From Tubulanus polymorphus (Eukaryota > Nemertea > Palaeonemertea > Tubulaniformes > Tubulanidae): a stretch of 64,000 bases of DNA. The position numbers were made by a program, and so were the translations under genes. Within the stretch, counting starts at the first letter, position 1. Every line of letters begins with the position of its first letter. The notes below the pieces were generated by a model. That model searched no databases and was not told the origin of the DNA. It worked only from the letters and a program-made list of their open reading frames with translations. Location: positions 14,068,275 through 14,132,274 of the forward strand of contig NC_134032.1 of the NCBI RefSeq assembly GCF_964204645.1, read 5' to 3'. Below, one piece after another: positions 24,140-52,912 of the stretch.

Positions 24140-27100
24140 ATGGAACCAATTTTCCGTCGCCTAAAAAATCGTACGATCGACACGTTTGACACCGATGCCG
24201 CCAAGAACCATAAAAGCACTAGTGGTTGGGCAACTCAGGACCCTGCGGAGAAAGTTTTGGCGGATGCGATGCGCCGGGTTGCCCAGGCCAGAGGAGATCA
24301 GTCAAACCCGAAACATTTGTTAGGCCAGTATACACTTCAGTTTGGTAAGTTTAGGGGTAAGAAATTTCAGTGGATACTCTCTAATGCTCTTGGCTTTGCA
24401 GTAAACCTCTACGTGATGGATGAATGTGAGAAGCAAAAACCACATCCCAAGATAGACCACAAGAACCATGCCGACAACAAGAAAGCCCTCTTCAAATACA
24501 TGAGGCTGTTTCCCGAAGCCAAGGACGCGATTGAGAGGAGGAGAGCTGTCCATCAAGAGCGTGTGAAACCTACGATTTCAAGTAAGTCAAGTTTTCAATA
24601 TACAGTCGGATCGTTTGATATCAGAGTTGTTTTGTGCTTGTTCTATTTATGAAAAATTTTTTATTTTCACAGAAGCTCGTCAGACTCAACCAGCCGGGAG
24701 CCAACCAACTGTGACAACTAGGAGGAGTCGCCCATCTGCTACAACCAGGAGCCAACCAACTGCGACAACTAGGAGTCAACCCAGCTCATCGACTACAACT
24801 GAGAACGTCTCGATGCCGTCTGATGATGATGATGATCTACTGACAAGTGTCATCACTCTTGAAGCGCAGTTATCTGGTAATATAACTTAATTCTAATGAT
24901 ATTTTTATTGTAGATTCAATTGATACATCATGAGATATACATCCTACAAATTTTTGCAGTGTTTTGGACGGATTGTAAAGATTCCATCCAAGTTAACCGC
25001 AGTCCTCCCTTTCGGCCATCCACTCCTAGTAATTGCAGCCATATTGTAACATTTAATCATTTATTTCTCAAAATTTACAGTTTATATCTGGATAAGTTGG
25101 TAAGATTTATGTTGTGTAGGGTTCCTAGAATATGCTTTTATAAATGTGTAGCTATTGTAAAATGGTATTTTCTTCCTATCTATTTTAATGTACCTGTTTC
25201 TTTACAAAAACTGGGTAATCATGCTTTATATGTATGCAGTACTGTCTCATTATTACATAATCCATCTTTATGATATTGGTATATAGTTGCTATAATGGAC
25301 ATTATGAATATGATAACACACACACTCTCTCTGTCTCTCTCTGTCACTAGCAAAATGCAACACTTCTATCCTCTCCTGCTTAATAACTTATTTTTTAAGG
25401 TGATTTCCCTTTTGTAATCTCATTTTTCCAGTGAGTCACTCTTATTCCTCATTTATAGGTATTTAGATGGTAACATTACAGTGATGCGGTTTTCTTTTGT
25501 TCCTTTTGTCTATCATTCTGTTTTTGTTTAATATTTCAGTGAAATTGTACCGGACTTTATGATGATTTAGAATTCTTATGCTATAAACCTCAATCATGAA
25601 TGAGATAGTAAATTCATATTCTATTTTTCTCTATCTAGCCTCTCGGACAACACGGACTACAGCGACTACGACTACACCGACCACGACTACTACTACTACT
25701 ACTACTACACCGACTACGACAACCGCGATCGATAACGACCACCGCTTGCTTTTACCAGAATGGCGTAAAGTTCTGTCCGAATATGAACAGAAGTGGATCA
25801 CCAAAACCCTCTTCATGAAAACCAAGAGTGGGAGGCTGGAGATGGATTTTAGCCGCGTCAATCAGCTTTGGTGGAATCCTCCACAGCCATTGGTAGTTGC
25901 AGGCCAGGTACCCAACGTCGAGCAGTACTTTGCCCACCGCCTGTTCTTGTGGATGCCTCGACGACTGTGGCAAGTCCAACTTAGATGTCCAGTCGCAACG
26001 TGCCAAGGGAGAGAGTTGACATCAGCAGGATTATACAAGCGGTTGCGGCAGGTACTCGATATCGATTCGCACTACTTCATCGCAACAGAAAGTTTGGAAT
26101 GTCAGAAGTAAGATTGTGTCCATGTTAAAGTGTGACCTGCTGATTACAGGTTGTGATTTTATGAATGATTTTTTTTTTTTGTCTCGTATTTATAGATGCA
26201 AGGCGAAATATGTTGGAACGACTGCTGAGATCATCTCGCAACTAGCCGTCGGTTACCAGCTCCAGTTCCCGTGTATACTGACACAGAAGTACGCGTGCGA
26301 TTATAAGGTTGTGCGACTGCTTCGTCAGAGAGGTCTGGGTAACAGCACTACTCAGATCCAGAAGAAGCTGCGGGAGCAACATGGCGAAGCTTACCTCGAG
26401 CGTGTCTCACAGTACCTCACTGAGTGTGAAGGCTTGTCCAAGGCTATCCGTTCTGGTCTCGTAAAACCGCACGAATTCGCTGACCCACCACAGCCTTTGA
26501 GCATCCCGCAGTTTCGGTGGCTCATGCTTGTGTACGTCAGTGATGTGTTGTCGAGACTGGACGAGGTCAGGGCAGCCATTACGTCTCAGTTTGGTCGAAT
26601 TCTCAAAATTGACTCAACTAAGAAAATAGTCAAGAAGTTGACTGGTCATGCCAAGGGGACCGCGATGTGGTGCACCAATGTAGGGAACGAGCATGGTCAG
26701 GTCCTTATGTCTGTCCTTACTACTGGCGAAGGCTATGGTCTCAGTCAAATGATTGATGGCCTAATCAAAAGGTATGATACTGCTGGTGTGCCTGCCCCTG
26801 AGGTGATATACACTGATCGGGATTGTTGTGGCCACAGCGTACTGAAAACAAACCTAGCCCCTTGGACAGATATCATCATCAGATTGGACGTTTGGCATTT
26901 CATGCGGCGGTTCTCTACAGGGTGTACTACAGATTCACATCGGCTGTATGCGAGTTTTATGAGAGGCCTTAGCCGGTGTATCTTTGAGTGGGACCCTGAG
27001 GATCTTGACCGTCTAAAGAGAGCGAAGCGTGAGGAGCTAGCCCTGAAAGCTATCACTGGTCTTAGTGACCGCCAGTTAGTTGAGCGAATTTCTTCGGCCG

Positions 27101-29930
27101 AGTTGGCACGGCACTGTAAACGTACCACACGTGGAACAGATGCTACTGTCCGCCTACTGGGTCAGCTCGTCGCTTCCTTCTCGGGTGACAAAGGGAAAGA
27201 CTCCTTGGGTGTTCCGCTCATAAACACTGAGCGCATGGCGGAGATTTATAAGTCTCAAGCTAAGCATGTTGCCTGCCTGCAGGATCCACCTGGCGTTCAG
27301 TTGTACACACAAACCGGAACGATCAAGAAAGGACAGACGACACTGCCTATCTACAGATGTGCCCGTGGTTCGACGTCATTGGAATCATTCCACCTTCATC
27401 TAAACAGATTCATTCCAGGTAAGATTAAAAATCACTTTCACCATATGAAATCTTCTCTTGTAGCTTTCTCTAACTAATAAGCTAATTTCATGATTTCATA
27501 TTTATAGGTACTGTGGCTGGCGATGTCAGTTTCCAGATGTACCTGGTTGATGGTTTAGCGCGTTGGAATGAGGATCGAGCTATTGCAGCTGTAACTCAAG
27601 ACAAACAGATTTCCTGCTACAGTGGAAAGCTACGCCATCATATCAATGAGCTAAGTCAAACTGTCCTTGGAAAGAAGCTTTTACCAGCATTCCAAGGGCC
27701 ATTGCGTTACACCGGTGAACCTATAGGTATTGATTATCTTTACAGCCAAACAGGAGAGGCACCAGTGTCTAACACTAGGTTGCGTCTAGCCGAGGAGGAA
27801 CGCTTGCTGGACTCTGCTTCTGACCAGGAATTTAGTGACAGCCCTGTTGATGAGCCGCTGCCTCTGTATGATGTGGAAGACTTGACATTAGCTGTGCCTA
27901 CTGATGAGGATAACGACTTCTGTAAGTCACAATGTTTTTAGAAAATTGTTTGAATAATAATTCTATTTCAGTTCTGTTAAGTTCATTCCTGTAATTGATT
28001 CCTCTGATTACTGTTGACTTTGTGATATGCCCTCAGCTGAATCCATTACATTTTGACTAAGGGATAATGGTTTTGTGTATTATTTTTCATTGTAGTTTCT
28101 CCGACTGTGACACCAACTGCACCAGTTCTTCCCGTTGACACCATGTCCGTTGATACTCCGTTGCCGATGGAAACTGAGGAGGTCACTGAGCTTGAACCCG
28201 ATGATGCTGTGCCAGAATTTCGCTTACCGACCCTTGATACTCCAGAGCTGCAGCCCTTTGAACTGTCGAATGTTCCATCTATTGAATCTCCCCTGGGGGA
28301 TTCGGATGAGCATGTAAGTTTTCTATAAAAAAAGGTTTTCGTTCGAGTTGTGTTGATGTTGTTAAAGAATTTAATTTCAAATATCTATTTTATTCAGGAT
28401 TCTTTGGGACCAGACGGTATTGCTGGATTTGGAAAGGTTGATGCTTTGGCTGAGAAACTGGTAAACTTGGATGAGAATTCACTGGCTCTTACAAACAACG
28501 AAGCTCGTGAAATCATTGATTTGTGGCAGAACTTGGACGACTACGACAAGAGGTCCATCATCAAACCACGCCATCAACCAACTCTCAGTCAAGGTAGATT
28601 TCGAGCAACAAAGAAACGTTCTGGCTTGGCTCCTGGAGTTGAAAGTTCACGGAGGTAAGCCTAATCTACTGTATTTTTCATTTCAAAATAAATGTACTAA
28701 TAAGTCGAAATTGCCAATTGAATATTAAATGGCAATATAATCTTTGAGTTCAATTTGACCCTACAATAGAGGTTACATGGGTTAACCTAAATAAACTTTA
28801 TGTTAATCAAGTATTTATGATAATTTTTAGAGCTTTTCTGGGACCAAATTCGGCACCTGCTCAGTGGCCGACTTGTAATCGCTACGTCGAGACAACCATG
28901 GTGAAGCTCTGTGCGAAGTATCCAGCATCAAAAACGGTTGCAGGAGTGCGAGTTACGCGATGGATCCTTATCTCCCGCGCCTACAAGCACATAAGAGACG
29001 TCGTCGTCGGAAATCCTGTGGTTATGCATCACTCGAACATTCAGCTTCCAGAGTTGAATATGACGACTATAACCCAATGGTAAGTTAACCTTTTATGCCC
29101 CACCTCTTAACCATCTAAATTATTATTAATCATATTGAGATTATGTTCATAAAATGGTCTATTTCTTTTTTCATTTTAGGTGGAATCGACGTTCTAAGAA
29201 GCAAGAGGAAATGGTTCTCAGGCAGGGAATTCAAATCCCGAATCCTCCTTTGGCAAGCCAGCAACCATTGCTTATTGCTTGTCAAAAGCCTTCTGTGCTG
29301 CCGAGAGGATCCTCTGATGATCGCCATACCTTTGTACTTCCTACGAACACTGCTGGAATGGCGAAAATAAAGCGGCGAAGAACAACTCCTTCCGCAACTG
29401 CGACTCTCGCATCAGTAGCTGCGGCAGCAACTAGTACGCGGCCTGCACCGCAGATTCCTCAGAATGTTATTGATTTGTCAGGCGCTCATCAGTCCCTCAA
29501 TACAGATACTACCGCAGATACTACTCGATTGATGGGTTGCTCACAAATCATGACAGGACCTGTTGCGTCTAAGGAGCAGAAAGCTGAAAGTTTGCAGCCA
29601 GCCACTACCCAGCTGATAATTGTTGCACCGCCAAAAGACCAGGCCGTTCTGCCTAAGGTCATCCATTCTGAATCCATGGGAAATATACAGGTTGTTCCTT
29701 ACACAACCCATATGCACAGATTACAAAGGCAGCAGCAATTAGAAGCTGGGGTGAGTCGCAGAAAGTACACTCCACGGACAAAGGTTACTTGTCCTAAGTG
29801 TAAAAAGGAGAGATCGAAGCCCTCGCATCAGCAGTTTTTCGGAAATTGGTACTGTAGTGAAACGTCAACGGTGACTCTGGAAGAGTGGAGACAGCAAATG
29901 CAGGCCAGGGGATACAAGAAGAAGAAGTGA
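24140..29930 (+). CDS. DDE/RNase H-like protein, DUF6729-type family (nine coding exons)
   Basis: A 1408-residue protein. Exons: 24140-24581, 24673-24876, 25639-26107, 26196-27418, 27508-27921, 28096-28313, 28398-28654, 28831-29079, 29180-29930; all junctions keep phase. An N-terminal module contains FGKFRGKKFQWILSN. A Thr/Arg/Ser-rich linker with a threonine run (about 216-255) follows. A zinc ribbon (RCPVATC ... CQKC, ending near 374) spans an exon junction. A helical segment contains VVRLLRQRGLGNS. An RNase H-like core has candidate acidic residues D511 (KIDSTKK), D579 (YTDRDCC) and E768 (SLESFHLH), plus a conserved DVWHF at 603. The C terminus has a second Cys/His cluster (CPKCKK ... WYC). 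I recall very similar multi-copy proteins in fish annotated with DUF6729; this name is from memory. It could be an intron-bearing DNA transposon or a domesticated derivative. The clean ORF and spliced structure favour a functional gene. Confidence 0.8.
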
Positions 29931-34987: not shown

Positions 34988-36556
34988 TTAAAGTCTAGCG
35001 ACTTTTTGGGCGATGTGCTCGACGGCGTAGTGAAACCATTCCTCGAATGAAATAGTGCCGTCGTTGTTTTTGTCCATCTTGCTGAACTGTGTTTTCCTGG
35101 CTGCAATGCGTTCCTGGTCGGTTTTGTACATGACCGAGGATTGCGGGGCTAAACCGTATCGTCTGGGCATAGCGGCGGCAATCTCGATCATGCTGTCAAA
35201 CTCTTTCACGTTGACGGCTCCGTCGTGGTCGCGATCGGCTTGTTGGAACACCTTCATCAAGTAGAAATACAATTCTCGATGCTCAACGTTCTTTTGGACG
35301 ACGGCTTTCTTGCAGAAGGCGATGAACTCGTCCTTGGGACCGTCGACCATGATGTGCGGTTTGACGGCGCTGATTTTACCCATGATGTGAGTCATGGCGT
35401 AGCTGATCCAGCTATCCAGACTGATCTGTCCGGTTCGTTTGGTGTCGATCTTGGCGAACAGTTCTTTGCGGGCTTTCAGACGATCTTCGATGGTCGGATA
35501 GGATTGCTCGTTAGTGGGGGCCAGGCCGTATCGGCGTGGTAGCTCGGCAGCAGCGTCGATCATGCGATCGAATTCGTCCACGTTAACGGTACCGGTGTAG
35601 TTGATATCCGCGTCGGTGAAACAGCGGACCAGGAACGCGTGCAACTCGATTCGCTCGTTCGAATCGCGGTGTTTACACGCTTGGCTTATGAAATGTAGGA
35701 ACTCTTCTTTCGGCATGTCCAACGATGACGACATATCTACGAAAATAGAAACGTAATACAAAAATTAGCGCCCCCTGGTGATGAAAATAAGTGAGCGGGA
35801 ACCATGTTTTGCCTAATCGCGTATCTTACCGGCTATCTTCCTGGCGATGTGACTAACGGCGTAGTTCAGCCATTCGTGGAACGATACGGTTCCGTCACCA
35901 TTCTTATCCATTCTGGCGAACTGAACTTTTCGTGCGGCCAGTCTGTCGGCTTCGGTCTTGTACATGAGTTCCGATTTCGGGGCCAGGCCGTATTTACGAG
36001 GCATAGCGGCGGCGATTTCGATCATCTTATCGAATTCGGCAATATTGACGGCGCCGTCGTGGTCGCGATCGGCCTGTTGGAAAACCTTCAACAAATAGAA
36101 ATACAACTCTTTGTGTTCGGTGGTTCCTTTTTGGACGGCCTTCTTGATGAATGACAAAAACTCTGACTTGGATCCGTCGACGAGGATATGTGGTTTCAAG
36201 CCGCGGACTTTCCCGCTGATGTGCTTCATGGCGAAGTGTACCCAGGCCTCCAGACTGATTCTACCGGTCTTGGCCGTATCGATTTCAGCGAATAGGACTT
36301 TACGAGCTCGGATACGGTGTTGCGGTGTTGGGTATGACTGTTCGTTGGTTGGCGCGAACCCGTGACGTCTGGGTAAGGCAGCAGCCTTGTCGATCATCGT
36401 GTCGAATTCGTCGAAAGTAACGGTGCCGGAGCAGTCCTTATCGGCGTCCGTGAAACATCGAACCAAGAAGTTGTACATGACGATTCCTTCATCGGATTGT
36501 GGATCCTCGCTTGCCATTCTCGAGGCGTGCACGAATTCTTCTTTTGTCATCTCCAT
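34988..36556 (-). CDS. Eight-EF-hand calcium-binding protein (two fused halves)
   Basis: A minus-strand gene of 491 residues. Coding exons are 36556-35830 and 35736-34988, preceded by a 5' UTR exon (about 37845-37788) joined to the acceptor at 36589. Each half of about 245 residues has four EF-hand loops. In half one these are D39-E50, D93-A104 (last residue not acidic), D163-E174 and D217-E228. In half two they are 286-297, 340-351 (ends in Ser), 410-421 and 464-475. So six loops look able to bind calcium, and the second loop of each half is degenerate. Each half also repeats the phrases PRRxGxAPTNEQSYPT and FQQADRDHDGAVN. The single coding intron falls exactly between the halves (phase 1), and the second half begins MSSS right after it. 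No signal peptide. I do not know a named family for it; cytosolic calcium buffering or sensing is inferred. Confidence 0.85.
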
Positions 36557-36801
36557 GGCGACTAATTGTTGTCTGTGATTGAAACAGTCTGCGATAGAAA
36601 AAAATACGATAGACATTAAAAATGAGAAATTTTCTGAAAGGGTCACTTTAACCTTTTCACCTCGACCCGAGCGCAGGGGTCATCAATCTGAAATTGTTGA
36701 TCGTAAACAACTTTATTGAACTATTAACGCCCGTTTCCTTGAATGGAAAAAAATAATTTGGGTCGGCGTGCAATGGACTGGTTAACGGCTAGACGGGTTC
36801 A

Positions 36802-39167: not shown

Positions 39168-42100
39168 ATGTTTCCAATTGGCCCTGGTAAGTTATTTATT
39201 TCATTGTTCAGACTTTTATCTTTCGAACGAATGTATATAATGTCGGATGGATGCGGGAATTTTCTGAGAAAATGCTCTCCGAAATCGACTCGTAAATTTC
39301 AGCGAGTCCGAGCAGCGACGTGACGCCCGCATATAATCATCATTTTCTCGGAAAAATTAATTCCAAATTTTATCGAAAATATTGGTATCGACACGGAAGC
39401 GTCACCATCCGATTATAGAAAAGAACTAATTCAATATTCATTCCGAATTGACATTATATTTGGAGTATCTAATTTGACCTCGATTTTGTCGGACCCCTCT
39501 GCTTGACTCATTCATTTCTCATTTAGTAATTTACCAATGGTTACTACTATTTGTAGGATTTCAAGTCCCTGGAGCAGGCGGCGGGCCCCCGGGCGCGCCC
39601 GGACAACACGGTAGTCACCTCGGACCTCCGCAACGTTATGGTATGCAACCAGTCGGTACGGGTATTGGGGGTGGTGGTAGCGCGCTAGGTGGCGCTCTCG
39701 GGGGAAATGGGTTAGGAGGAGGAGCTCTCGGAGGAAACGGTCTCGGCGCTGGAGGACTAGGAGGAACAGCTATCGGCGCAGGAGGACTAGGAGGAACAGC
39801 TATCGGAGCTGGCGGACTAGGAGGTGGACTAGGAACTGGAATAGGACCGGCTCCGATTGGTACCGGCCTCGGCGTCATCGGAGGACCAATCACATCTGGA
39901 ACTCAGGAAAATCCGACGTAAGTTTATAGTGTTATCCATCTGACACATTGTTGACACTCACTTGCCATAAGTAGAAACCTCAATTGGTTGCTACCCTAAG
40001 GTTGATGTTGTTACAACATCAACTTCTGCGGCAACCAGTTGTACTAGACGCTAGTGACACCCGTTGTATCTTCACTGATGACACTTGTATAACGCTTATT
40101 TATTTTATTTTCTAGCGCGGCTCAGTTGATGGAGTTTCAGTGTCCCGCCCGTCCAAACCATGGCACAGACGGGCGCCCGATCATGTTGAGGGCCAATCAT
40201 TTTCAAGTGCATATGCCCAAAGGGTTCATACATCATTATGATATTTCTATAACACCCGATAAATGCCCTAGAAGAGTCAACAGGTGCGTTTATCAATCTT
40301 CTCTCCGTGTATTTGCTCCACTTATACGCAAATCGTGACATTCTGAGCCGTCCCTTATCCTTGTAAAAAAATCCCCCTCTTTGATACGCGATTCTGAAAA
40401 TTTCATTTCGGTTTTCTTCTTTCCAGAGAAATAATAGAAACGATGGTTCAAGCTTACGCCCAAAAAATATTTCATGGCCAGAAACCGGTTTTCGACGGGC
40501 GTAAAAATCTCTACAATCGAGATCCGCTACCAATCGGACGAGAACGGGTCAGTTTTTACACAAACAGGGTTTCCAGCGGTCCTTTCAAGTACTTCTTTGT
40601 CCTGCTTTTGGAAAATGTTTGGACAAACATCATCTTTGTCCTTATTTTTGACTAAGTCCTTCCTTTGGATGAAGAAGTCCTTCCAAATTTCAAGTTTTGA
40701 CACAAACCTCATTGGGTATAGTTGATTTAACTTTGAAACAACTCAAAAAAATTTTAAAATTGTGGTTTGTTACTGGCTCACTAGAATTCTGACTCTTAAA
40801 TTGAGATTCTGAATTAGAATTTTTTGTGTCTAGTTGTTCTTGCTGGTGACGAGTAGCACAAGGAACCTCTTGATAAGAAACAGCCCTCACTGAGGATATC
40901 TTATAATTTTATTTGGAAATTTGAATTTTTGGTGTCTTGTTGTTCTTGCTGGTGATGAGTAGCACAAGGAACCTCTTGATAAGAAATAGCCCTCACTAAG
41001 GATATCTTATAATTTTATTTGGAAATTTGAATTTTTGGTGTCTTGTTGTTCTTGCTGGTGACGAGTGACACAAGGAACCTCTTGATAAGAAAACAGCCCT
41101 CACTGAGGATATCTTAAAATCAATGAATGAATCACAGAATTTTTGGTCAAGGATGGGGGAGATATCGGGAAATTTCGGATTCCTTGATCCGTAAGAATTG
41201 TTGTTATATATTTGTAAAATATTGTTTTTAAGGTTGATTTAGAGGTAACTCTTCCCGGAGAAGGCAATAAAGATCGCGTATTTAAAGTATCTATAAAGTG
41301 GGTCGCGCAGGTCAGTCTTTACGCGTTGGAAGAAGGATTAGAGGGTAAAGTTCATCAGATTCCTTTCGATGCGATACAAGCCCTCGACGTAGTGATGCGC
41401 CATCTACCGAGCATGACGTAAGTTAAGGATATTATAGTACATACTAATGTTGAATCCAATCCCACAATTATTGTCCCATACAATCTGGTAGATTGTACAG
41501 GGATTTGTGGGCAGGTCAGGGAAAGTCGATAGGAATTATATCCCCAATACGGCCTTCTGAAAATCTATTTAAGATTTCAAATTGCCTGTTGTCACATGCC
41601 CCAAGATGAGATTGAAGTGTTTTGAATTGATGTTTCAAGACATTCACATTAGGGGTCGGTTCCGCAGTCACGACTTAGACTTAGGTCCAGTCTAAGACCA
41701 TTTCAGGTCTATAGTCAATATAACAATTTAAGACCAGTGTTAATATTTTAAACCACTTTTGGACTTAAGTTTCGGGCCATAGGTGGTGTTGTTAGTCAGT
41801 TCATTATTCATGCACCAGGTGGCCGTGTTGTTTGAATATTGATTATTTTTTGTTTGTTGCAGCTACACCCCAGTTGGACGGTCATTTTTCTCTGCGCCGG
41901 AGGGTTACGATCACCCGCTAGGTGGCGGTAGAGAGGTCTGGTTCGGTTTTCATCAAAGCGTTCGTCCGTCTCAATGGAAAATGATGCTCAATATCGACGG
42001 TAAGTCAGTCGATTATTTTGGAGTCCCATTTATTTTTACTGATTACGTCGGAAACTTTTCCCCAAATTTAGTTTAAAAGTCTTATTATTTCATATCTCGA

Positions 42101-45100
42101 GATGTCAATAATCATGGTTCCCACAGTACAGGAAATCAGGGGAAAACTTTCAAAATCATATTTCCATTTTACACTTGATGTAGCATTTGTCAAGGGAAAC
42201 TTTATTCACCAATTTTACTTGAAAATCACCTTGATCAATCCGTCACCACTCGTTGACGTCAGTCCCTCTATTACGATGGTATCTGTTGATTTCCATTTGA
42301 AAAAATCACTCGCAAAAAAATTGTAAAATTTTAAACTCATCTGACTGTTGGAACAATAGATGGGTCTTGCTTTTGATTTCAATAAAACTTTCTTGAATGA
42401 AATATTCTGTTTATCTCAAATGTTCACAATACTCTTGATACATCGATGAGGGAGGGGAAGAGATGATATATCAATGATGATCTATAGAGATGATATATCA
42501 ATGATGATCCATAGAGATGATATATCAATGATAACGAGAGATGATATATCGATGATGATAATAATAATAATAATGCGAGAGATGATATATCGATGATGAT
42601 ATTGCGAGAGATGATATATCGATGATGTATCGATGATGATAATGCGATAGATGATATATCGATGATGATAATGAAGAGGGATGATATATCGATGATGGTA
42701 ATGCTAGAGATGATATATCAATGATGATAATGAGAGATGATATATCGATGATGATAATGCGAGAGATGATATATCGATGATGATAATGCTAGAGATGATA
42801 TTCGTTGTTGTGTGTGTTTCAGTTTCGGCGACTGCGTTTTATAAAGCTCAACCTGTAATTGAGTTCATGTGCGAAGTGTTAGATATCCATGACATAAACG
42901 AACAAAGACGTCCTTTAACTGATTCGCAAAGAGTCAAATTCACTAAAGAAATCAAAGGTATGCGTTTATGTTTATTTAAAGAAGAATGATTTTGAATGGA
43001 AAAATATTCTTTATGGATGCTTGGTTCGTGGGGTTGAAACTGGTTGGGGTTGAGTTAAGACCGTCTTTAGAAATATACCCAGATACCATAGTCATAGGCT
43101 TAGGCTTAAGACCAGTCTAAGCTCATTTGGGTTCTTAAACGAATCTAACATGATACCAGTCTTGAGATTTAAAACCACTTATGGACTTGAAGACTGTGAG
43201 GCTGGTTCCTTGATAAGAATTTCATTCAAGGTGTTAAATGATGGAAACAAACTGATTTTAATGTTAGTCAAATTTGTCATTTTAGAGTCAAAACTGTCGA
43301 CTATCGACCAGGTCTATAAACCCAAAGAATCATTGAGCGTTGAATTTTGTTTGTAGGTTTGAAAGTTGAGATCACACATTGCGGAACAATGAAACGTAAA
43401 TACCGAGTTTGTAACGTTACTAGGCGACCGGCGCAGACGCAATCATTCCCGTTACAACTCGAGTCGGGACAAACGGTCGAATGTACCGTTACTAAATACT
43501 TCCATGAACGATATAAAATGAAACTACAGTAAGTTGTTGCACTAACGCCTTCAGGCAGCTTAGAATACCAGTCTAGTAAATACAGGACCGAGTTCAGCGG
43601 GAACTGTTCCTGACCTCCACTGTCACTAGAATAAACAAGGGGTGAAAGATTTGAAATTAATTACTGGTATTTGAATTCTATAATGAGTCAAACTTAACCA
43701 GTTACAGTGAAACAGTTACAGGATCCCTGACTTGCAGTTGCTGTAGTTGATTATTAAGTTAATGTGCAGTGGATAGTTGTAATAGGGACAATTAAACGTC
43801 CATTGTTTTTAGCACAGTATTAACAGACGGTTTTCCGACCAACTTTTTGAGCAACAGGTTCCACTTCCACAGTTGTTAGAGTTAACTTTTGAGTTGATTA
43901 GTTCATTTTGATAAGTTATTTAAACACAACTGTGGAACTGGATCCTGAATTCACAGTTTACTCAAACTCACATCTGTGGAACTGGGTCCTGAGCTCTTAT
44001 ATGGTCCAGATTTGTAATAGCTTAAAAATTAAACTTTGAAAAAATCTCAATATGAAATTAACTCACTAAGATGTTCAAACATAACTGTATTACACCGTCC
44101 AGGGTTGTTAATTTATATTTATCCATCCGTCTCAGGTTTCCGTATCTGCCGTGTTTACAAGTGGGTCAGGAACAGAAACACACATATTTACCGTTAGAAG
44201 TTTGTAACGTTGTCGGAGGCCAACGTTGTATCAAAAAACTCACCGACATGCAGACGTCAACAATGATCAAAGCGACGGCGCGATCCGCTCCCGATCGTGA
44301 AAAAGAGATTAATAGTTTGGTAAGTTTATCGCCAGGTGACGTGGGTAACGTGGATCCACTTGTGACGGGTTAGATGAGCGTTCCGTAAGATACTTTCAAT
44401 TCTATGAGTGCCCCGTTTATCTAAAGGCACTTCAGAAGGTTAAAATGTTGACCGAAAAGAAACATGAAGGGGCAGAATTTTAATGAAATTTTTTCTGCCC
44501 TTTCCTTATTAATTTCCTACAATTCTGGAAATGGGAATTAGTAATCAACCACGAAAATTCCCATTTGCCCTGAAGTATACGAACCCTGATTACTGAAAAG
44601 CAGCCCCTCGGTGTGCTTTGCCCTGATGCCGACGAAGTGGTATGGAAATATAGGTCTTGTGGCTGTGCTACGCCATAATATTCACATGGTGGTCAAACAC
44701 GATCAATGATTTACACGTTAGGCCCTCAAAATTTATAAACCGACAGATTATTTACTTGCGTTGTTCTGTACAGGGAGTCTCCAGCAATAATGTTTAGTAA
44801 ACTATGACTTCACTTTCGACCCCTATCTACGGGCGCGTTTTACTCTAAATTGCTATTTTTCGCTCTCGATTTTCAGGTGAAAAAAGCAAACTTCAATTCC
44901 GATCCACATTTACAAATGTTCGGAGTCAGCATTAACACGGCAATGACTGAAGTTCAAGGTCGAGTGCTACCCGCTCCGAAACTGCAGTACGGAGGACGAG
45001 TAAGTGACAGCAGTCCGTCGCTTAGCAACGCTGATTAGCGGTTTAGTTATCGCTATTGAATTTTAACGTTTTTTCTCAACAGCAAACTCGAGCTCAGGCT

Positions 45101-48100
45101 GTTCCGAATCAAGGCGTCTGGGACATGAGGGGTAAACAGTTTTTCAGCGGGATAGAAATTCGAGTTTGGGCGATCGCTTGTTTCGCGCCTCAGAGGACGG
45201 TCAGAGAGGATGCGCTGAGGTAGGATTCAAAAGTTTATACAAAATCCAAACCCAAGAGTTTTCCTTTTAAAGAGTACCTTTAAAGAGTACCATTTAAGTT
45301 TCCCCGTAGTTTAGAGAAATTCGTTCATTTACCACTGGGGGGGTATCTTAGTCAGGAAATTTCTGGTCAGGTGATATTTTAAGATTCCCTGATCTGTAAG
45401 AATACTGATTTTAAACAGTTTTTCACTTATAAATAATAAACGGTAAAATTCATCATGTGTCTCCTGATCCTCCCTCCCTCTCTTGACTTAAACAGGGTCC
45501 CTACAACTCGTTGAATCCTTGAAAACTCCTTGATTTTTGAATATATTTTTCAAGGTCCTTGAAAATCCTTTAATTTTGAGAAATATCCATAAACTCCTTG
45601 AAATTCCTTAAATTCTGGGAAAGTCCTATTAAAAATTTTCAAAAGGTTCTTTTCAGAAGACAGTGTATTCTATTATTCTTCATTGTGTGACTTGTGAGTG
45701 AAAGTTGTTTCACTTTGAGATTTAAAACATTTAAACATGTAAAACCAAAACGGCACACACAACAACTGATCAAAATTCGAGAAAAACATGGATTTTGTTT
45801 TTGAATTTTCGACTTTTTTTCCTTATATATGACCGCGAAAACCTCCTTGAATTTTGAAAATTATTCCTTGTAAATTCCTTGAAAAGTCCTTGAATTCTGG
45901 ATACCAGGAATTGTAGGAACCTTGTTAAAGACATGTTGATGTAGAGTGTATATGTAATGATGATATTTTCCGCGTTGCAGGAATTTCACGCAGCAGCTAC
46001 AGAGGATCTCAAACGATGCCGGAATGCCGATAGTCGGGCAGCCGTGTTTCTGTAAATACGCGACCGGACACGACCAGGTCGAGCCGATGTTCCGATTTCT
46101 CAAAAATACGTACGCCGGTTTACAACTGATCGTCGTCGTGTTGCCGGGTAAAACACCCGTCTACGGTACGTACGTCTGCACAAACTGTTTCTAGATCCTC
46201 TCAATCGTCTGCTCAAACTGTTTCTAGATCCTCTTAATCGCCTGCTCAAACTGTTTCTAGATCCTCTTAATCATCTGCTCAAACTGTGTCTAGATCCTCT
46301 TAATTCATTGTTTCTAGATACTCTTCATTCACAGACATTCTGTCTGCCTGGTAAATTTGCCTAAATTAGTTTTTAGATTCCCATTAATTTGTTTGAAGTT
46401 AGAATAGCCTACATGGTGGTGCCACTTACGGCAGAATGCGGCCACCCTCGTCTAGTATCAATCATGCTCAAAATGATAATATCTGGATCTCCTTAACAGA
46501 TGAATTTGCAGGTGAAATGAGTTTCTAGGTCGCTGACTAATTTTTAGAGATTTCCCTTTTTAACAGCTGAAGTGAAGCGAGTCGGTGATATTCTGATCGG
46601 CATGGCGACACAATGCGTCCAGGCTAAAAACGTCAATCGGACATCTCCGCAAACGCTGTCCAATTTGTGTTTGAAAATCAATGTTAAACTGGGAGGAATC
46701 AACAGCATCTTACTGCCATCTATACGGTAACTGAACCATCCGTCTGCTTGATTCGTCGGTTTGAAAATCGGTTGAGTTTGAAATTTGAATTATTTCCTTG
46801 TAGTCCACGAATCTTCAATGAGCCGATTATATTCCTCGGAGCTGACGTAACTCATCCTCCGGCTGGAGATACCTCCAAACCTTCTATAGCAGCTGTGAGT
46901 ATTATCTACCTACCTACTCTCCCTCACTGCTACAATCAATGGATTGGTCCAAATTTGTCTCACCTCAGCTGTAAATGAAATAGAATATTTGGTTGTTGAT
47001 TGTAGGTTGTTGGTAGTATGGACGCTCATCCTAGTCGTTACTCGGCAACCGTGCGTCTGCAGCCGCATAGACAGGAGATAATACAAGATCTGACGGCGAT
47101 GGTTCGCGAATTATTGATCCAGTTTTACAAATCGACCCGGTTTAAACCGAACCGGATTATCATATATCGAGATGGAGTCAGCGAAGGCCAGTTCCAACAG
47201 GTAATCATCTAGAGTGGTTTAAACCGCCGGTCGTCGCCGGTCTCGTCTATCCAGGGCTTCATGGGTTCGAATCCCCGGTGGCGACAGAGTTTCTCGATCG
47301 AAGGTTCTTCTCGGGGCTCTTCTCATTTGGGTAAAAGAAACATCGCACCCACTACTAATGATATCCTGTGTTGCGCTCAGTGGGTTGAGGGAATTGAAAA
47401 AAAAAAATTAATAAGAATCTAATAACAAAATCATCGAAAATCATGCAAATTCTTTGGCGTTGAAAAAATTTTAAATAAATAGAGTTTAACTTGCTGAAGT
47501 CATTGTAATTGTAAATAGTCGATCTATCCAACATTATGTTGATGACCTATTGTAAGTGAATTGGAAAAACAAATTGGGATAATTTGAGTGCAAATTGGGA
47601 CTCAAAAACGAGACAGATTCAATAATGGGATGACCTACCTGATGATGAAATTGAATAGATATTGCAGGGTCCGATCTAAGGAATGAAAGCCACTTGCCCG
47701 GGGGGGGCAAGCATATCTGAAATTTTACTTGCCCCTTCCAAAAGCTACTTGCCCTACACAGGCAGTCCAATTGGTGGCACTATCATCCGTTGTATCGAGT
47801 GGGGAATAAGCTTTGAGACATAAGATTGCACTAACCCGGGGACAAGTGATAAATGATAACCTACTTGCCCTGATGAGAATATACTTGTCCCGGGCAATCG
47901 GACAAGTGCTTAGATTGTACCCTGTATTATGTTCGTTAGAAATGTTGATATTTATTTTCATTTGTCGTGTAGGTTTTACAACATGAATTACGAGCTATTC
48001 GAGAAGCATGTATGAAACTTGAGATGGATTATCAGCCGGGTATAACATTTATAGTCGTACAGAAACGTCATCACACAAGACTCTTCTGCGCGGATAGAAA

Positions 48101-51100
48101 AGATCAGGTAAGAGATTTTCTGTCGATATCTCGGCTATATTTGAGAGATTCGAAATGATAATTTGAGAAAAGTAGTTATTTTGAGATATCATGTTTTAAA
48201 ATACTTTATATGATTCGATATACTTTAATATACTTTATATAATTGAGATTAATTCTGAAACTAAATTTCGACATTAGTTTTGAAATATCTTAAGTATAAT
48301 TTTGAAATTATATTTCGAGATTACTTTTGAAATTAATTTGCGATTTTGAGATGATTGAAATGATATTTTGATGTCTTTCGAGTGATGTTTTGAGATAAGT
48401 TTTGAAATTTCATTTTTGAGATGATTAAAGTGATATATATTTTGAGATTGATTATTAATGAATGATATTTTGATGATTTGTAGATTGGTAAGAGTGGCAA
48501 TATACCAGCTGGTACTACAGTAGACATTGGTATAATACACCCAACTGAATTTGACTTCTTTCTATGCAGTCATGCTGGTATACAGGTAAATACACTTACT
48601 CACAGTCTGTTACTTAACCTAAGTTTTAATTTGGCCTGGATTGTTTTAAAAATTCATACCGTATTTTCCGGCCAATAAGTCGATTTTCTAGCCTCAGATT
48701 TTTACCCAAAATATCGTGATCGGCTTATTGGGCGGATACGATCTGTCATAAAAAATCACTTCCCGATCTATGCCACTCTAATGCTCTCAATGATCGTCAA
48801 AATCAAGAAAAGTGGTCGATATTTATTTGAGGTCATTATTTACTACCAATTATAATCTATTTTGAACTATTTTATTTTTACTTTGATTGTTCCATCACCG
48901 CACAGCGGCAATGGTATACATTTATATAACGCGCAAGTTCATCATACTACCACATGTCAGTTCATGCAAATCAGCAGTGAGCCGCGTACTGCGTGTATGG
49001 CTGTGTGTATAGTAATCAGCTGAGTGAGTCTATATATAGCACAGTCACTCGGAGATGATAGTATACACAGCACTCTCACACATCGGCCGGCGCTACTGTC
49101 AGCCTCTTAAATCGTCAATTAAGACGAACTAATTGACAAATCAGTGAATTAAAATCTCTGATGAAGGGCCTCGGCTTATTGGGCGAAGCTTTATGAAATC
49201 CATGTATTTTAGGCTAAAAAACTGCCCTCGGCTTATTGGCCGGAAAATACGGTATTTACTTACATTCAGGCGTATTTGCTTACATTCAGGGCTATTTACT
49301 TACATTTAGGTACCTGATAGATGACTCCCGAGCACCTAGCATCAGGTGAATCCATTCACCCGATGAAGCTTCTATACATTAGAAGCGAAAGTTCGTGCGT
49401 CAAATAAATAGTTAACCTGAATATAGTACTACTCGTCTCGTGATTAATTGAAATGTAGAAGGAATCAAACGCGAAACACTGAATACGAATACGAATATTT
49501 ATTACACTCCAACCATTCCCACGGTACATGGAGGAAAAAAAAACAGTATTTACAATTATTTACAAAAACAGTAGATAAAAGCACTTTGAAACATAACAAA
49601 CGTTATATACAACATACTATTTACACACACTACCGGAGGGATCTATATACATCCAGACCTAATTTGATAAATTTAGCAAGTTTAAAAGTTGGATTTTTAA
49701 AACATCAAGATTCCGAAAGGTATTTGAATTTAGGTAGCTTTCACTGATTAACTATCTACTAGCGACACCTGGCGGATCCTCACCTGCCATACGCGGAAAC
49801 CCCAATTATTGATAAAGATGTTTATTATTTTTTTTGCGTACAGGGTACATCGCGTCCATCTCACTACCACGTATTGTGGGATGACTGTAATTTTACGGCT
49901 GATGAGTTACAGATGTTGACGTATCAGTTGTGTCATACGTACGTACGATGTACTCGTAGCGTATCGATACCGGCTCCTGCTTACTATGCACATCTCGTCG
50001 CCTTCAGAGCCAGATACCATCTCGTCGAAAAGGAACATGACAGGTACGTTTGCCTTCACTATTTTTTAGCCCACTTGGGACTTAAGTCCCAGCAGGTTTT
50101 GAATATGGTCACCTTAAATAGTAGAATAACTTAGTATTTCCATATTAAATTGGTAACGAGGCATATTTTGTTATCACAATCAATTACAAAATCATAGCTG
50201 TTGACATGTTCTATGATTGTGGTGAGTTTCAAGTTCATTGGTTTTTGTAAATGGTCACCAGGGGGCGTTGAATATTGAAATTGTTAGATTGTTGAGCATT
50301 TGGAACCACTTCCCAAGTGGGCATGGTGTCCCTGGACCCCTAGTTTTTCTATAACACCCTCAACCCGCTAAGCGCCACGCCTGGGCATTATTAGTGGGTT
50401 TGACGTTTCTTTCTCCCGATGTGGGAGAGACCAGAGAAGAACCTTCGACCAAGAAACTCTGTCGCCACCAGGGTTTGAACCCATAAACCCTGTATTGATG
50501 AGACCAATGACCGGCGGCTTAAACCACTCGGCCACTGCGCCTCTCTACAGCACCTTCACTTCCAGGGACAGAGAATAACAAACCTTACAGCGTAGAATTA
50601 ACGCGTTGCATTCATGTTTAGGGTTCCAATTGAAACGCATCGCGTACGTGATTGGAAATTCTTTCCGAAACGCCAATCATTTTCCCTTTTAACCCTTTCA
50701 GTGCGTCTACACCGCAGTGCGGTGTATAAATCAGTGGTAGATTTTGCTAGTACACCGCACTGCGATGTATTGATGTAATTAGTAATTATCTCTCTTGAAA
50801 ATTGGCAGCACCTAGTGCAAACATAGTGAAATACTAGTAACTAACAATACAGTGGTATTCCCGTTATTCTAGGGTGGAATTTAAAAAAATTCTCATATTA
50901 TCTCCAGCATTATAGGGTATTAATTAGTCAGCACTGAAAGGGTTAAGCGTAAACGAAACAGAACAATGTTAAGTTAATTCTAAGCTGTACCGTAGATCTG
51001 GCATTCCTCGGGCAGATGGAGGGCTGATAGGGGCGAGGAAAGCTATATACCTTCTCTCACGAATGCAGACCCTGTAGTCACGACCCTCTTAAGACCTAAA

Positions 51101-52017
51101 TTACTTGGAAATACCATCTAGATCAGGAATTGTTTGTGGTTCGTTTTCAATTAAACCACTTTTCTTCATGTCGAATTACTCGCATTACTGGCTAGAATCG
51201 TATCAAGTTGTCGAGTCTGCAAAAGGAACATGCTTTGTGAATTGATATGTAGCTTTTTTCATCGAGGGTGGGTAGAGGTAGGCAATAGGGAAAACTTCAG
51301 AACTAGATCCCTGTTCCTATGGGTTGGGGTTCTGTAGATAGGTTGGGTTAACTTGGTAACTTGGACAGGTACCTGCATGCTATTTCCCCATGAGGAATAC
51401 GACATCACGGTGGCCACTGACCTGAAAAACCTTGAAAACTTGCGGAATTTGGATAAAGCTATTGAACATACATTTCTTTGTCAATACGTGATTCAATGAA
51501 AAATGAATGAATTATAACATTATTGAACCTAGAAATTTTTCTGATTTGTGTAATCAGGGAAAACCTCTAGGTAAATGGGTAGAAAGTGGCCACCAGCATT
51601 TTGTCTGACTTCTTCAGATGATTTATTGTCGTTTAAAAATGTTGTTGTGTTGTTGTTGTTTTACACGGATACGTGACGTTAGTTGTAATTGTTGTATTTT
51701 ATAGCGGAGAAGGCAGTCAACAGTCGGGTCTCAGCGAGGAATGTCAACCCGCGTTACTGGCTCGATTCGTAACCGTTCATCCCGATTCCAGTCGTGTCAT
51801 GTACTTCGCCTAGTCGTCGTCGTGGTTACCGTCGTTCGTCGTAGTCGTCGTGGTTACCGTCGTCGTGGTGATACGATAACTAATATACAAACATTGTCTC
51901 TATTGCAGCGGAGAAGGAAGCCAACAATCGGGCCTTAGCGACGAGCGAACGCCGACCGTGTTAGCGCGAGCTGTTGCCATACATCCCGATTCGCTCAAAG
52001 TTATGTACTTCGCTTAA
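39168..52017 (+). CDS. Argonaute, miRNA class, slicer residues intact
   Basis: The small-RNA-guided effector of RNA silencing, 972 residues in 19 coding exons. Exons: 39168-39186, 39557-39917, 40116-40283, 40427-40547, 41233-41417, 41863-41999, 42823-42957, 43357-43528, 44136-44319, 44877-44999, 45083-45219, 45981-46165, 46567-46726, 46804-46894, 47006-47200, 47973-48107, 48484-48585, 49844-50043, 51909-52017. A second last exon lies at 51705-51813. All junctions keep phase. Residues 1-127 are a Gly/Leu/Ala-rich extension; the N, PAZ, MID and PIWI domains follow. The PIWI catalytic tetrad is complete: D710 (FLGADVTHP), E750 (RQEIIQD), D782 (YRDGVSEG) and H920 (AYYAH). The MID 5'-phosphate pocket residues (Y, K, Q, K in PVYAEVKRVG, TQCVQ and LKINVKLGG) are present. 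It resembles vertebrate AGO1-4 and fly AGO1 much more than fly AGO2 or PIWI proteins. Confidence 0.95.
39981..40041. repeat. Hairpin in Argonaute intron 2
   Basis: Inner arms gttgatgttgt and acaacatcaac flank a single base (40001-40023). Outer arms caattggttgc (39981-39991) and gcaaccagttg (40031-40041) pair with one mismatch. Probably a small foldback element. Confidence 0.75.
40818..41125. repeat. Three ~106-bp tandem copies (Argonaute intron 4)
   Basis: Copies centred on gttgttcttgctggtga start at 40833, 40939 and 41045. Each continues through cacaaggaacctcttgataa and ccctcact-aaggatatctta. Confidence 0.85.
41650..41775. mobile_element. Foldback MITE (agacttaagaccag family), Argonaute intron 5
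   Basis: It starts ggggtcggttccgcagtcac and continues gacttagacttaggtccagt. The inverse phrases are aagaccagtgttaat and ttttggacttaag. The right end is partly lost. Confidence 0.65.
42430..42800. repeat. Short tandem repeat, gagatgatatatcgatgatg units (Argonaute intron 6)
   Basis: About a dozen imperfect units of roughly 24-30 bases, with an (ATA)n insertion near 42560. The repeat ends about 25 bases before the acceptor of exon 7. Confidence 0.85.
43085..43210. mobile_element. Foldback MITE (agacttaagaccag family), Argonaute intron 7
   Basis: It contains gataccatagtcataggctt and ggcttaagaccagtc on the left, and agtcttgagatttaaaacca then ggctggttcctt on the right. A degraded member of the family at 18239. 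Confidence 0.65.
43855..44000. mobile_element. Foldback MITE (gttccacagtt family), Argonaute intron 8
   Basis: The left side is ggttccacttccacagttgt with agagttaac. The right side has two successive tips, cacaactgtggaactggatc and acatctgtggaactgggtcc. Related to 31677-31791. Confidence 0.7.
45493..45924. mobile_element. hAT-like MITE, Argonaute intron 11
   Basis: The left terminus is cagggtccctacaactc and the right terminus reads ggaattgtaggaaccttg, an imperfect inverse. The body is built of ccttgaaaatccttgaattt-type phrases in both halves, a pattern I recall from widespread animal hAT-type elements. Exact target-site duplications could not be defined by eye. Confidence 0.65.
46175..46310. 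repeat. ~33-bp tandem repeat, 4 copies (Argonaute intron 12)
   Basis: Units read cctcttaatcgcctgctcaa followed by actgtttctagat. The array begins about ten bases after the splice donor of exon 12. Confidence 0.8.
47211..47407 (+). mobile_element. SINE, plus orientation, Argonaute intron 15
   Basis: A class II tRNA-like head truncated at its 5' end (agagtggtttaaaccgccgg), a B box gggttcgaatccccgg, then gcgacagagtttctcgatcg, aaggttcttctc and a body ending gtgggttgaggg with an A-rich tail. It begins about ten bases inside the intron. The same family is present in opposite orientation at 50353-50543. Confidence 0.85.
47665..47924. mobile_element. hAT-like MITE, Argonaute intron 15
   Basis: The termini cagggtccgatctaag and cttagattgtaccctg are inverses with two mismatches. 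The body repeats cttgcccgggg / ggacaagt phrases in both orientations. About 260 bases long. The flanking bases do not show a clear 8-bp duplication. Confidence 0.65.
48657..49254. mobile_element. Non-autonomous DNA element, ~600 bp, Argonaute intron 17
   Basis: The left end ccgtattttccggccaataa and the right end ttattggccggaaaatacgg are exact inverses, and inner blocks (tcggcttattgggcg) recur in both halves. Flanks are ta on both sides. Similar ccgtattttccgg tips are familiar from animal DNA transposons, but I cannot assign the superfamily. Confidence 0.8.
50353..50543 (-). mobile_element. SINE, minus orientation, Argonaute intron 18
   Basis: Read on the minus strand: gaggcgcagtggccgagtgg (complete A-box region), a B box gggttcaaaccctgg, then gcgacagagtttcttggtcg, aaggttcttctc and a body ending cgggttgaggg. 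It has the full head that the plus copy at 47211 lacks. Confidence 0.85.
50693..50942. mobile_element. piggyBac-like MITE with TTAA duplication, Argonaute intron 18
   Basis: A 250-base element with inverted ends ccctttcagtgc and gcactgaaaggg, flanked on both sides by TTAA (50689-50692 and 50943-50946). Inside are two inverse phrases (acaccgcagtgcggtgta and tacaccgcactgcg). TTAA targets and CCC-starting ends are the hallmark of the piggyBac superfamily. Confidence 0.88.
51705..51813 (+). CDS. Argonaute alternative last exon, proximal copy
   Basis: A 109-base exon in phase with exon 18 (donor at 50044). It follows the acceptor gttgtattttatag and encodes 36 residues, beginning [14 protein letters not shown] and ending [12 protein letters not shown] with a TAG stop. 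It has the same length and ends as the distal exon (51909-52017), matching it at 26 of 36 residues. About 13 of the matching codons differ only at synonymous sites, which points to selection on both copies. There is no splice donor at its end and no aataaa before the distal exon. Use of this acceptor would therefore make the distal copy part of the 3' UTR: an alternative-acceptor choice rather than a cassette exon. Confidence 0.8.
51909..52017 (+). CDS. Argonaute last exon, distal copy
   Basis: A 109-base exon after a strong acceptor (tgtctctattgcag). It encodes [15 protein letters not shown] ... [19 protein letters not shown] with a TAA stop. Its middle ([12 protein letters not shown]) is closer to the usual animal Argonaute end (LAKAVQVHQDTL in human AGO2) than that of the proximal copy, so I take it as the ancestral form. 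Confidence 0.85.
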
Positions 52018-52912
52018 GATTTTTAAAAAAACGACAAACTGCGTGTGCCGTTCCGTGTGCCGTATGGTAGTGTGCGCGCAGTTATGATCGTCATCGTCGT
52101 GTGCTATTACTGAGAATATCGTGTGCCCGTCATCATGACCATCGCTGCTTCCGTTGTTCGTGTGCCGTTTTCGGTGGTGCTCAGTAATGCGGTGTGCCGC
52201 CATCGCGACGGTGCGCCGCAATCGCAATCATGCGCACACGTGTGCGCTACCGATAATGATTATAATCTCTATCGATCAATTATTAACGCGAGAGAGAGAG
52301 AGAATTTTTTAAACCATTCCAAAACTCCGATGAAAATATTCAATGCGAACGCGTAACGCGAATAACTGCTGTTTTAAGTGAGGGAACAAACGGATCGTGT
52401 CGTCTGCATAATAATGAGCTTGGTATCCATGGCTTTACAACAATACGCGCTGCAACAACGGTATCTATGGAAAAACGGATTAACGACTATAATCGACGCG
52501 CGTGTTTTTATTTTCCTTGAATGCAGCAGAAAACGTCTGGCGGCGTCGGCGCGGTAATACCGCTCCGCACATCGTAGTGAACGCCACCTGTTATCAAATA
52601 CGAGAACCACGTAGAGAGAATTAGTCACAACCGGTCGAATTATTAGATAGAGGCAGCTAACAATAATGATACGAACCCCCAGATAAATTATAAGTAATTT
52701 TATTCGATGATATTTGCTTCTGTGTGTGTGTATAAAAGTGTGCTCATATTTTAATTCATTTCTTTACATTACTATTATCATGATTTATTATTATTTATTA
52801 TCGATTTCGTTATTTTTTTTTTTTTTGTCTTTTAATTTAATCGGCACCAGAATGCTTTTCTTCACTCACAACAGGGGGCGCTACTTACAACAACTTGAAA
52901 TGTTCAAATAAA
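52018..52912 (+). other. Argonaute 3' UTR (candidate)
   Basis: It is non-coding and contains an aataaa at 52907-52912, the first good polyadenylation signal after the stop. A CTCF-like caacagggggcgctac lies at 52869-52884. Confidence 0.45.

Follow-up and report, generated by a model that had tools for sequence, protein, structure and literature searches.

The locus described here raises the question of whether one gene for Argonaute, the protein at the core of silencing by microRNAs, can provide its product with two different C-termini, by splicing a common body of exons to either of two homologous last coding exons that lie in tandem at its 3' end. The window, by which we mean the whole stretch of 64,000 nucleotides of Tubulanus polymorphus DNA that was analysed (C8:14068275-14132274, in a genome of 267.8 Mb and 77 contigs), carries on its plus strand a complete Argonaute gene of the miRNA class with its catalytic residues, and at the end of this gene are two candidate last exons, a proximal one (A) and a distal one (B). 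The answer that we consider probable is an old tandem duplication of the last coding exon with retention of both copies, such that the gene would encode two isoforms of one Argonaute.

The Argonaute gene and its relatives

The 18 shared coding exons (Table 1) are separated by 17 introns, all of which have GT-AG ends, and a GT also stands directly after exon 18. The start codon of the model is our own choice and should be taken as a predicted start; from there, either last exon closes the frame at 972 residues. Residues equivalent to D597, E637, D669 and H807 of human AGO2, whose numbering is used for single residues throughout, are present by position, and these we take to be the catalytic residues of Argonaute. 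A Pfam scan of a 391-residue part of both isoforms returned a Piwi domain (393.5 bits) together with the end of the ArgoMid (Mid) domain, the Piwi match ending at residue 349 of the scanned part and hence ahead of the swapped exon, while the last 102 residues align without gaps to human AGO2 758-859. The marks of the AGO clade, that is, a serine cluster (S824, S828, S831 and S834) and a MYFA end, occur in A and B alike. By its MID and PIWI domains, catalytic positions, serine cluster and MYFA end, the predicted product is a miRNA-class Argonaute of the AGO clade.

Table 1. Features of the Argonaute locus, in coordinates of the window.
Feature	Position	Strand	Remarks
Shared coding exons, n=18	39168..50043	+	joined frame open from MFPIGPG to end
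Shared exons 1-6	39168-39186, 39557-39917, 40116-40283, 40427-40547, 41233-41417, 41863-41999	+	
Shared exons 7-12	42823-42957, 43357-43528, 44136-44319, 44877-44999, 45083-45219, 45981-46165	+	
Shared exons 13-18	46567-46726, 46804-46894, 47006-47200, 47973-48107, 48484-48585, 49844-50043	+	
Possible decayed third copy	51178..51202	+	25 bases of intron 18, 21/25 identical to exon A
Acceptor of A	51685..51704	+	...gtattttatag, score 9.17, rank 1/117 AGs
Last coding exon A (proximal)	51705..51813	+	36 residues and stop; codon of first S shared with exon 18
Weak donor-like GT inside A	51801..51802	+	CAT/GTACTT, score 4.71; splicing of 51800 onto 51909 would link A and B in frame
A-B spacer, 95 bases	51814..51908	+	intron for B, 3'UTR for A
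Acceptor of B	51889..51908	+	...ctctattgcag, score 5.55, rank 7/117 AGs
Last coding exon B (distal)	51909..52017	+	36 residues and stop
First AATAAA 3' of exon B	52907..52912	+	

A close Argonaute paralogue lies on the same contig, 5.9 Mb away on the minus strand (G000:C8:8205500-8215400, L001). Its MID-PIWI part was read as seven exons, of which the single last exon is referred to as P, and with B as tail the window gene agrees with it at 354 of 391 aligned residues. All seven exons read open, and at the position of catalytic D669 the paralogue carries a serine (YRSGISEGSF), which probably makes it a slicer-dead partner. Exons 16 and 17 of the window gene are separated by an intron that the paralogue lacks. 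The final 65 bases of exon 18 (49979-50043) are identical in the two genes and the match ends at the splice junction, compared with 97 identical codons among 198 for unchanged residues in exons 13-17, exon 12 being also high (47/60); gene conversion or a constraint at the RNA level might account for the identity of 49979-50043. Another Argonaute (L003, G000:C1:4262500-4267500) is more diverged, with 50-76% identity to the window protein over the better-aligned blocks, and ends in MYFI. From these features it looks like a member of the siAGO class, a class missing from molluscs, annelids, brachiopods and phoronids in one survey.

Three further observations concern other sequences. Within 350 bases at G000:C7:5222071-5222418 a 20-base pattern occurs three times in tandem without mismatch, and for this pattern the reversed control found one place with up to two mismatches. 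We presume the pattern to be that of miR-1994; another, presumed to be that of miR-1986, was found at 0 places, and a COX1 query matched nothing. Together with the siAGO-like L003, the miR-1994 pattern is a weak hint of a lophotrochozoan other than a mollusc, annelid, brachiopod or phoronid, going by that survey. In the window itself, the minus strand at 34991-36646 holds two adjoining open frames, head to tail and each with several EF hands, that may belong to a single gene built of repeated EF-hand units. On the plus strand at 25596-27474, a frame matching the first half of Pfam DUF6729 is followed, after a short break, by a frame matching the second half.

Two homologous last exons

Exons A and B are both 109 bases long and align gap-free with 72 of 109 bases identical. 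They follow exon 18 (end 50043, AG/GT) in the same phase, and both are open and end in MYFA and a stop codon, which is TAG in A and TAA in B. The encoded residues agree at 26 of 36 positions, and the codons for these 26 residues are divided equally between identical (13) and synonymous (13), which reproduces an original prediction, made from the letters of the window, of two in-phase exons of this length and likeness, each with an acceptor and with about half of the identical residues differing by silent change. Excluding the stop, the differences between A and B at codon positions 1, 2 and 3 number 10, 4 and 22. As neighbouring homologous exons of the same phase and similar length, they constitute a tandem duplicated exon pair.

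When the whole genome was searched with a 44-residue query composed of the end of exon 18 and B, three matches were returned, namely B, the paralogue and, in third place, A, whose E value of 1e-9 means that the likeness between A and B is not due to chance. The DNA of exon A matched only itself, and a haplotype or assembly duplicate is therefore unlikely. Neither DNA nor protein queries found copies of the last exon in the genome other than A, B and that of the paralogue.

Splice sites and the ends of the messages

Acceptors were scored with a matrix built from 24 other acceptors (17 from this gene and 7 from the paralogue) and ranked among the 117 AGs around intron 18, from 50074 to 52300. 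Several unused AGs score above the acceptor of B, which means that the score is by itself no proof of use. Of 3626 AGs in the window, 1.0% reach the score of A's acceptor and 3.8% that of B's, and within the leave-one-out scores of the 24 acceptors (1.2-15.0) A is placed in the upper third and B in the lower. Matches to the branch-point-like yTnAy in the 70 bases above A are found at -42 and -4 only, and are weak; for B, a branch-point-like CTAAT is located at -26.

Between the two exons there is neither AATAAA nor ATTAAA, and a message spliced to A should thus extend across B and share the poly(A) region of the B message, leaving B untranslated. That no polyadenylation signal precedes B had been claimed beforehand, and this is correct for these two hexamers, although a weak variant, AATATA, is present at 51882. 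The stop codon of A would then stand in the last exon of its message, such that nonsense-mediated decay is not expected. It follows from this arrangement that the two exons, which had been called mutually exclusive, are better described as nested alternative acceptors, with the message for A carrying B as 3'UTR and the stop of A deciding the end of the protein. The sequence does support the related proposal that choice of acceptor alone would set the C-terminus.

Exon A had also been said to have no donor. This stands for the region after its stop, where no good donor was found (the best scores 2.05, against 3.8 for the weakest real donor in a leave-one-out comparison), but a weak donor-like site is present inside A, at 51801. 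Were it used, A would become a cassette joined to B, adding 32 residues in frame and giving the protein two tandem phospho-loops. The joined A-B frame is indeed open to the stop of B, and the score of the site is just over that of the second weakest of the 24 real donors (leave-one-out). However, 6.9% of the 3856 GTs in the window score at least as high, the site is made up of the codons for M-Y-F, which recur in B with a score of 1.38, and the stop and final codons of A, which a cassette could dispense with, have been kept. We regard such a cassette as improbable, and continue with A and B as alternative ends.

What the alternative exon encodes

The exon junction falls within the codon of S824, and the last exon corresponds to residues 824-859. 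Residues 820-837 of human AGO2 are reported to be a eukaryotic insertion in which S824, S828, S831 and S834 are phosphorylated by CK1alpha, beginning at S828 and after target binding, the added charge driving the target off (PMC9154749, PMC13041839). The C-terminal carboxyl group is described as contacting the guide 5' phosphate via water (PMC9262622). A placement of the exon near the PIWI catalytic site, as first proposed, was therefore imprecise, since by alignment to AGO2 it runs from the loop phosphorylated by CK1alpha through the C-terminal helix to the terminal carboxylate in contact with the guide 5' end.

The ten differences between A and B are at 835, 837, 838, 840, 841, 845, 847, 848, 853 and 854, and the four serines and MYFA are identical, such that the swap spares both contact ends and changes the helix between them. 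C837, F845 and S853 are particular to A; B, P, human AGO1 and human AGO3 all have R, A and L at these positions. B's own departures (D835, A847 and I848) are milder. Most likely, the Argonaute made with A is functional and differs in its helix, although the three residues particular to A could alternatively mean a loss of function. In the latter direction, tail packing could be upset by A845F and L853S, and A might then be purely regulatory, yielding an unstable or dominant-negative Argonaute as an autoregulatory switch comparable to a poison exon. The retention of a full-length tail and of MYFA, and a stop codon placed in the final exon where it should not provoke decay of the message, argue against this, and we consider it highly improbable. 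A working protein with an altered helix remains our preferred reading of A.

Selection on the proximal exon

With P available from the same genome, the dN/dS-type comparison suggested for the two copies could be made with three sequences. Out of 36 residues, agreement is 26 between A and B, 26 between A and P and 27 between B and P. At sites where B and P are the same, A departs from them at 8 of the 17 third positions, against 10 of the 60 first and second positions (one-sided Fisher p 0.014), and the same test gives p 0.008 for B and 0.036 for P. The changes unique to A at sites where B equals P number 7, 3 and 8 at the three codon positions, and those unique to B 2, 1 and 5; at the replacement-type positions 1 and 2 this makes 10 for A against 3 for B, and A has thus drifted faster than B at replacement sites. 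A codon model with a free ratio on each branch, compared with one in which omega of A equals 1, rejected a neutral A with 2dlnL 7.9. The setting was one of 36 codons, fixed kappa and three sequences (A, B and P) on an unrooted tree, with saturation at silent sites, a length for the A branch that reached its bound and a degenerate estimate for the B branch. An exon duplication older than the gene duplication would transfer to B and P a share of what is counted here as the A branch, and would make the test weaker. None of 148 simulations under a neutral A reached 7.9, the largest value being 5.3 and the 95th percentile 3.0. The silent and replacement changes thus fit the selection on both copies that had been proposed, and we read A and B as two constrained copies of which A is the more diverged, within the compass of 36 codons with saturated silent sites.

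A possible point of comparison for a copy that has escaped selection is found in intron 18, where the similarity of 51178-51202 to A has a score reached by none of 500 resampled introns. B and P as queries found nothing for a third copy in this intron (376 and 328 of 500 resamplings were as good). If the segment is a dead copy, it is an example of what an unselected copy becomes. A remnant of exon A in an intron of the paralogue was also sought and is not claimed, the best tblastn E value being 0.56 (query P), that with A as query 1.7 with a stop inside, and the nucleotide score with A being reached in 39 of 500 resamplings.

Exon A might itself be a relic or a mildly deleterious copy that is open by luck and spliced rarely or never, leaving B as the sole working tail. 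Its three changes at residues common to B, P, AGO1 and AGO3 and its lack of a good branch point are in keeping with this, and at 0.18 changes per base a neutral copy would stay open with a probability between about 0.05, when the indel ratio is taken as 0.1, and 0.36, when there are no indels. Such a relic is nevertheless at odds with the codon model and the codon-position test, with an acceptor that is the best of 117, and with 109 bases free of indels, whereas the possible third copy has decayed to 25 recognisable bases. Taking both sides together, we consider a relic unlikely, and prefer the retention of A as a coding exon.

The spacer and a search for an RNA switch

The spacer region contains a 23-base direct repeat (51813-51835 and 51841-51863, 96%). 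The sequences that follow A and B resemble each other with a score reached by 5 of 500 simple shuffles, both being CGT-rich, and this likeness hints that the duplication may have taken in some of the 3'UTR. No such likeness exists between the sequences preceding the two exons, for which 164 of 500 shuffles were as good.

RNA structure as a switch between A and B was considered, and no significant one was found in tests of folding, tract pairing and duplex formation. The fold of 51636-51910 has a z of -0.15, with 83 of 200 shuffles as good, and pairing of the UUG-rich tract above A with the spacer was equalled by 373 of 1000 null cases. A duplex of the intron stretch from 51344 with the spacer (-50.5) is reached by 5 of 60 resampled spacers and by 0 of 300 resamplings of the chunk, which was itself a best-of-79 pick, and as a splice switch it is a lead only.

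Discussion

We propose the following mechanism. A miRNA-class Argonaute gene would long ago have gained a second, tandem copy of its last coding exon, and both copies would have been retained as coding exons. Splicing of exon 18 to the acceptor of A would produce a message that ends its coding in A and carries B as 3'UTR, and when exon 18 skips A and is joined to the acceptor of B the alternative tail would be made. The products would be two 972-residue Argonautes that differ only at the ten positions within 835-854. Intact frames, a common phase, acceptors and constraint can be read from the DNA; we infer that both forms are spliced and that the choice between them is regulated. The changed C-terminal helix, with C837, F845 and S853 in A, may tune the fit of the tail under the CK1alpha phospho-loop, and a shifted loop position or altered tail packing could in turn affect target release, guide anchoring or partner binding, the phospho-sites and terminal carboxylate being unchanged between tails. 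A more specific and tentative suggestion, which we hold to be possible and rather doubtful, is that the splice choice resets target release, giving a fast- and a slow-releasing Argonaute from one gene, with the same CK1alpha phospho-sites and different helices.

Swaps of tandem last exons are a known class. In a study of human tandem-duplicated exon substitutions, 77 of 236 annotated events are C-terminal and C-terminal swaps are enriched (PMC9741552). Those substitutions, the tropomyosin 3' exons among them, resemble A and B in that homologous last exons of similar length swap a C-terminal segment; in contrast to that set, the message for A would here carry B untranslated, with no AATAAA or ATTAAA between the exons. 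The word Argonaute is absent from the main text of that paper, and among the matches listed from titles and abstracts of the open-licence literature, which are no proof of absence, no Argonaute with duplicated last exons was found.

Other systems are alike in part. In Drosophila pip and PGRP-LC there is likewise a choice between tandem 3' terminal regions, and for PGRP-LC competing RNA structures are reported to activate a proximal 3' splice site (PMC9013439), unlike A and B, for which no significant structure was found. AGO1x of vertebrate AGO1 is likewise a second C-terminus for a miRNA Argonaute from one gene, but it arises by readthrough of the stop codon, which adds 34 residues and spoils the carboxylate (PMC9262622), whereas splicing would here swap tails of equal length and keep MYFA. 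In the shrimp Marsupenaeus, Ago1A, Ago1B and Ago1C are isoforms of Argonaute-1 from one invertebrate gene, probably made by alternative splicing and differing in tissue use; the report on them describes a 27-residue PIWI insertion and a 9-nt N-terminal difference, and no swap of duplicated last exons (PMC3510085). A survey of Argonautes in Lophotrochozoa kept only the longest isoform per gene (PMC11114477), and since the A and B forms are equally long, such a pair would be missed by that procedure.

The tails of Argonautes are strongly conserved, and the human AGO2 counterpart of the swapped segment is the region of target release and of contact with the guide 5' end. An old and constrained natural pair of tails, if this is what A and B are, would be a ready-made experiment on the helix between both contact sites. 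It would also mean that a miRNA Argonaute can be tuned by splicing, in addition to phosphorylation or the use of paralogues.
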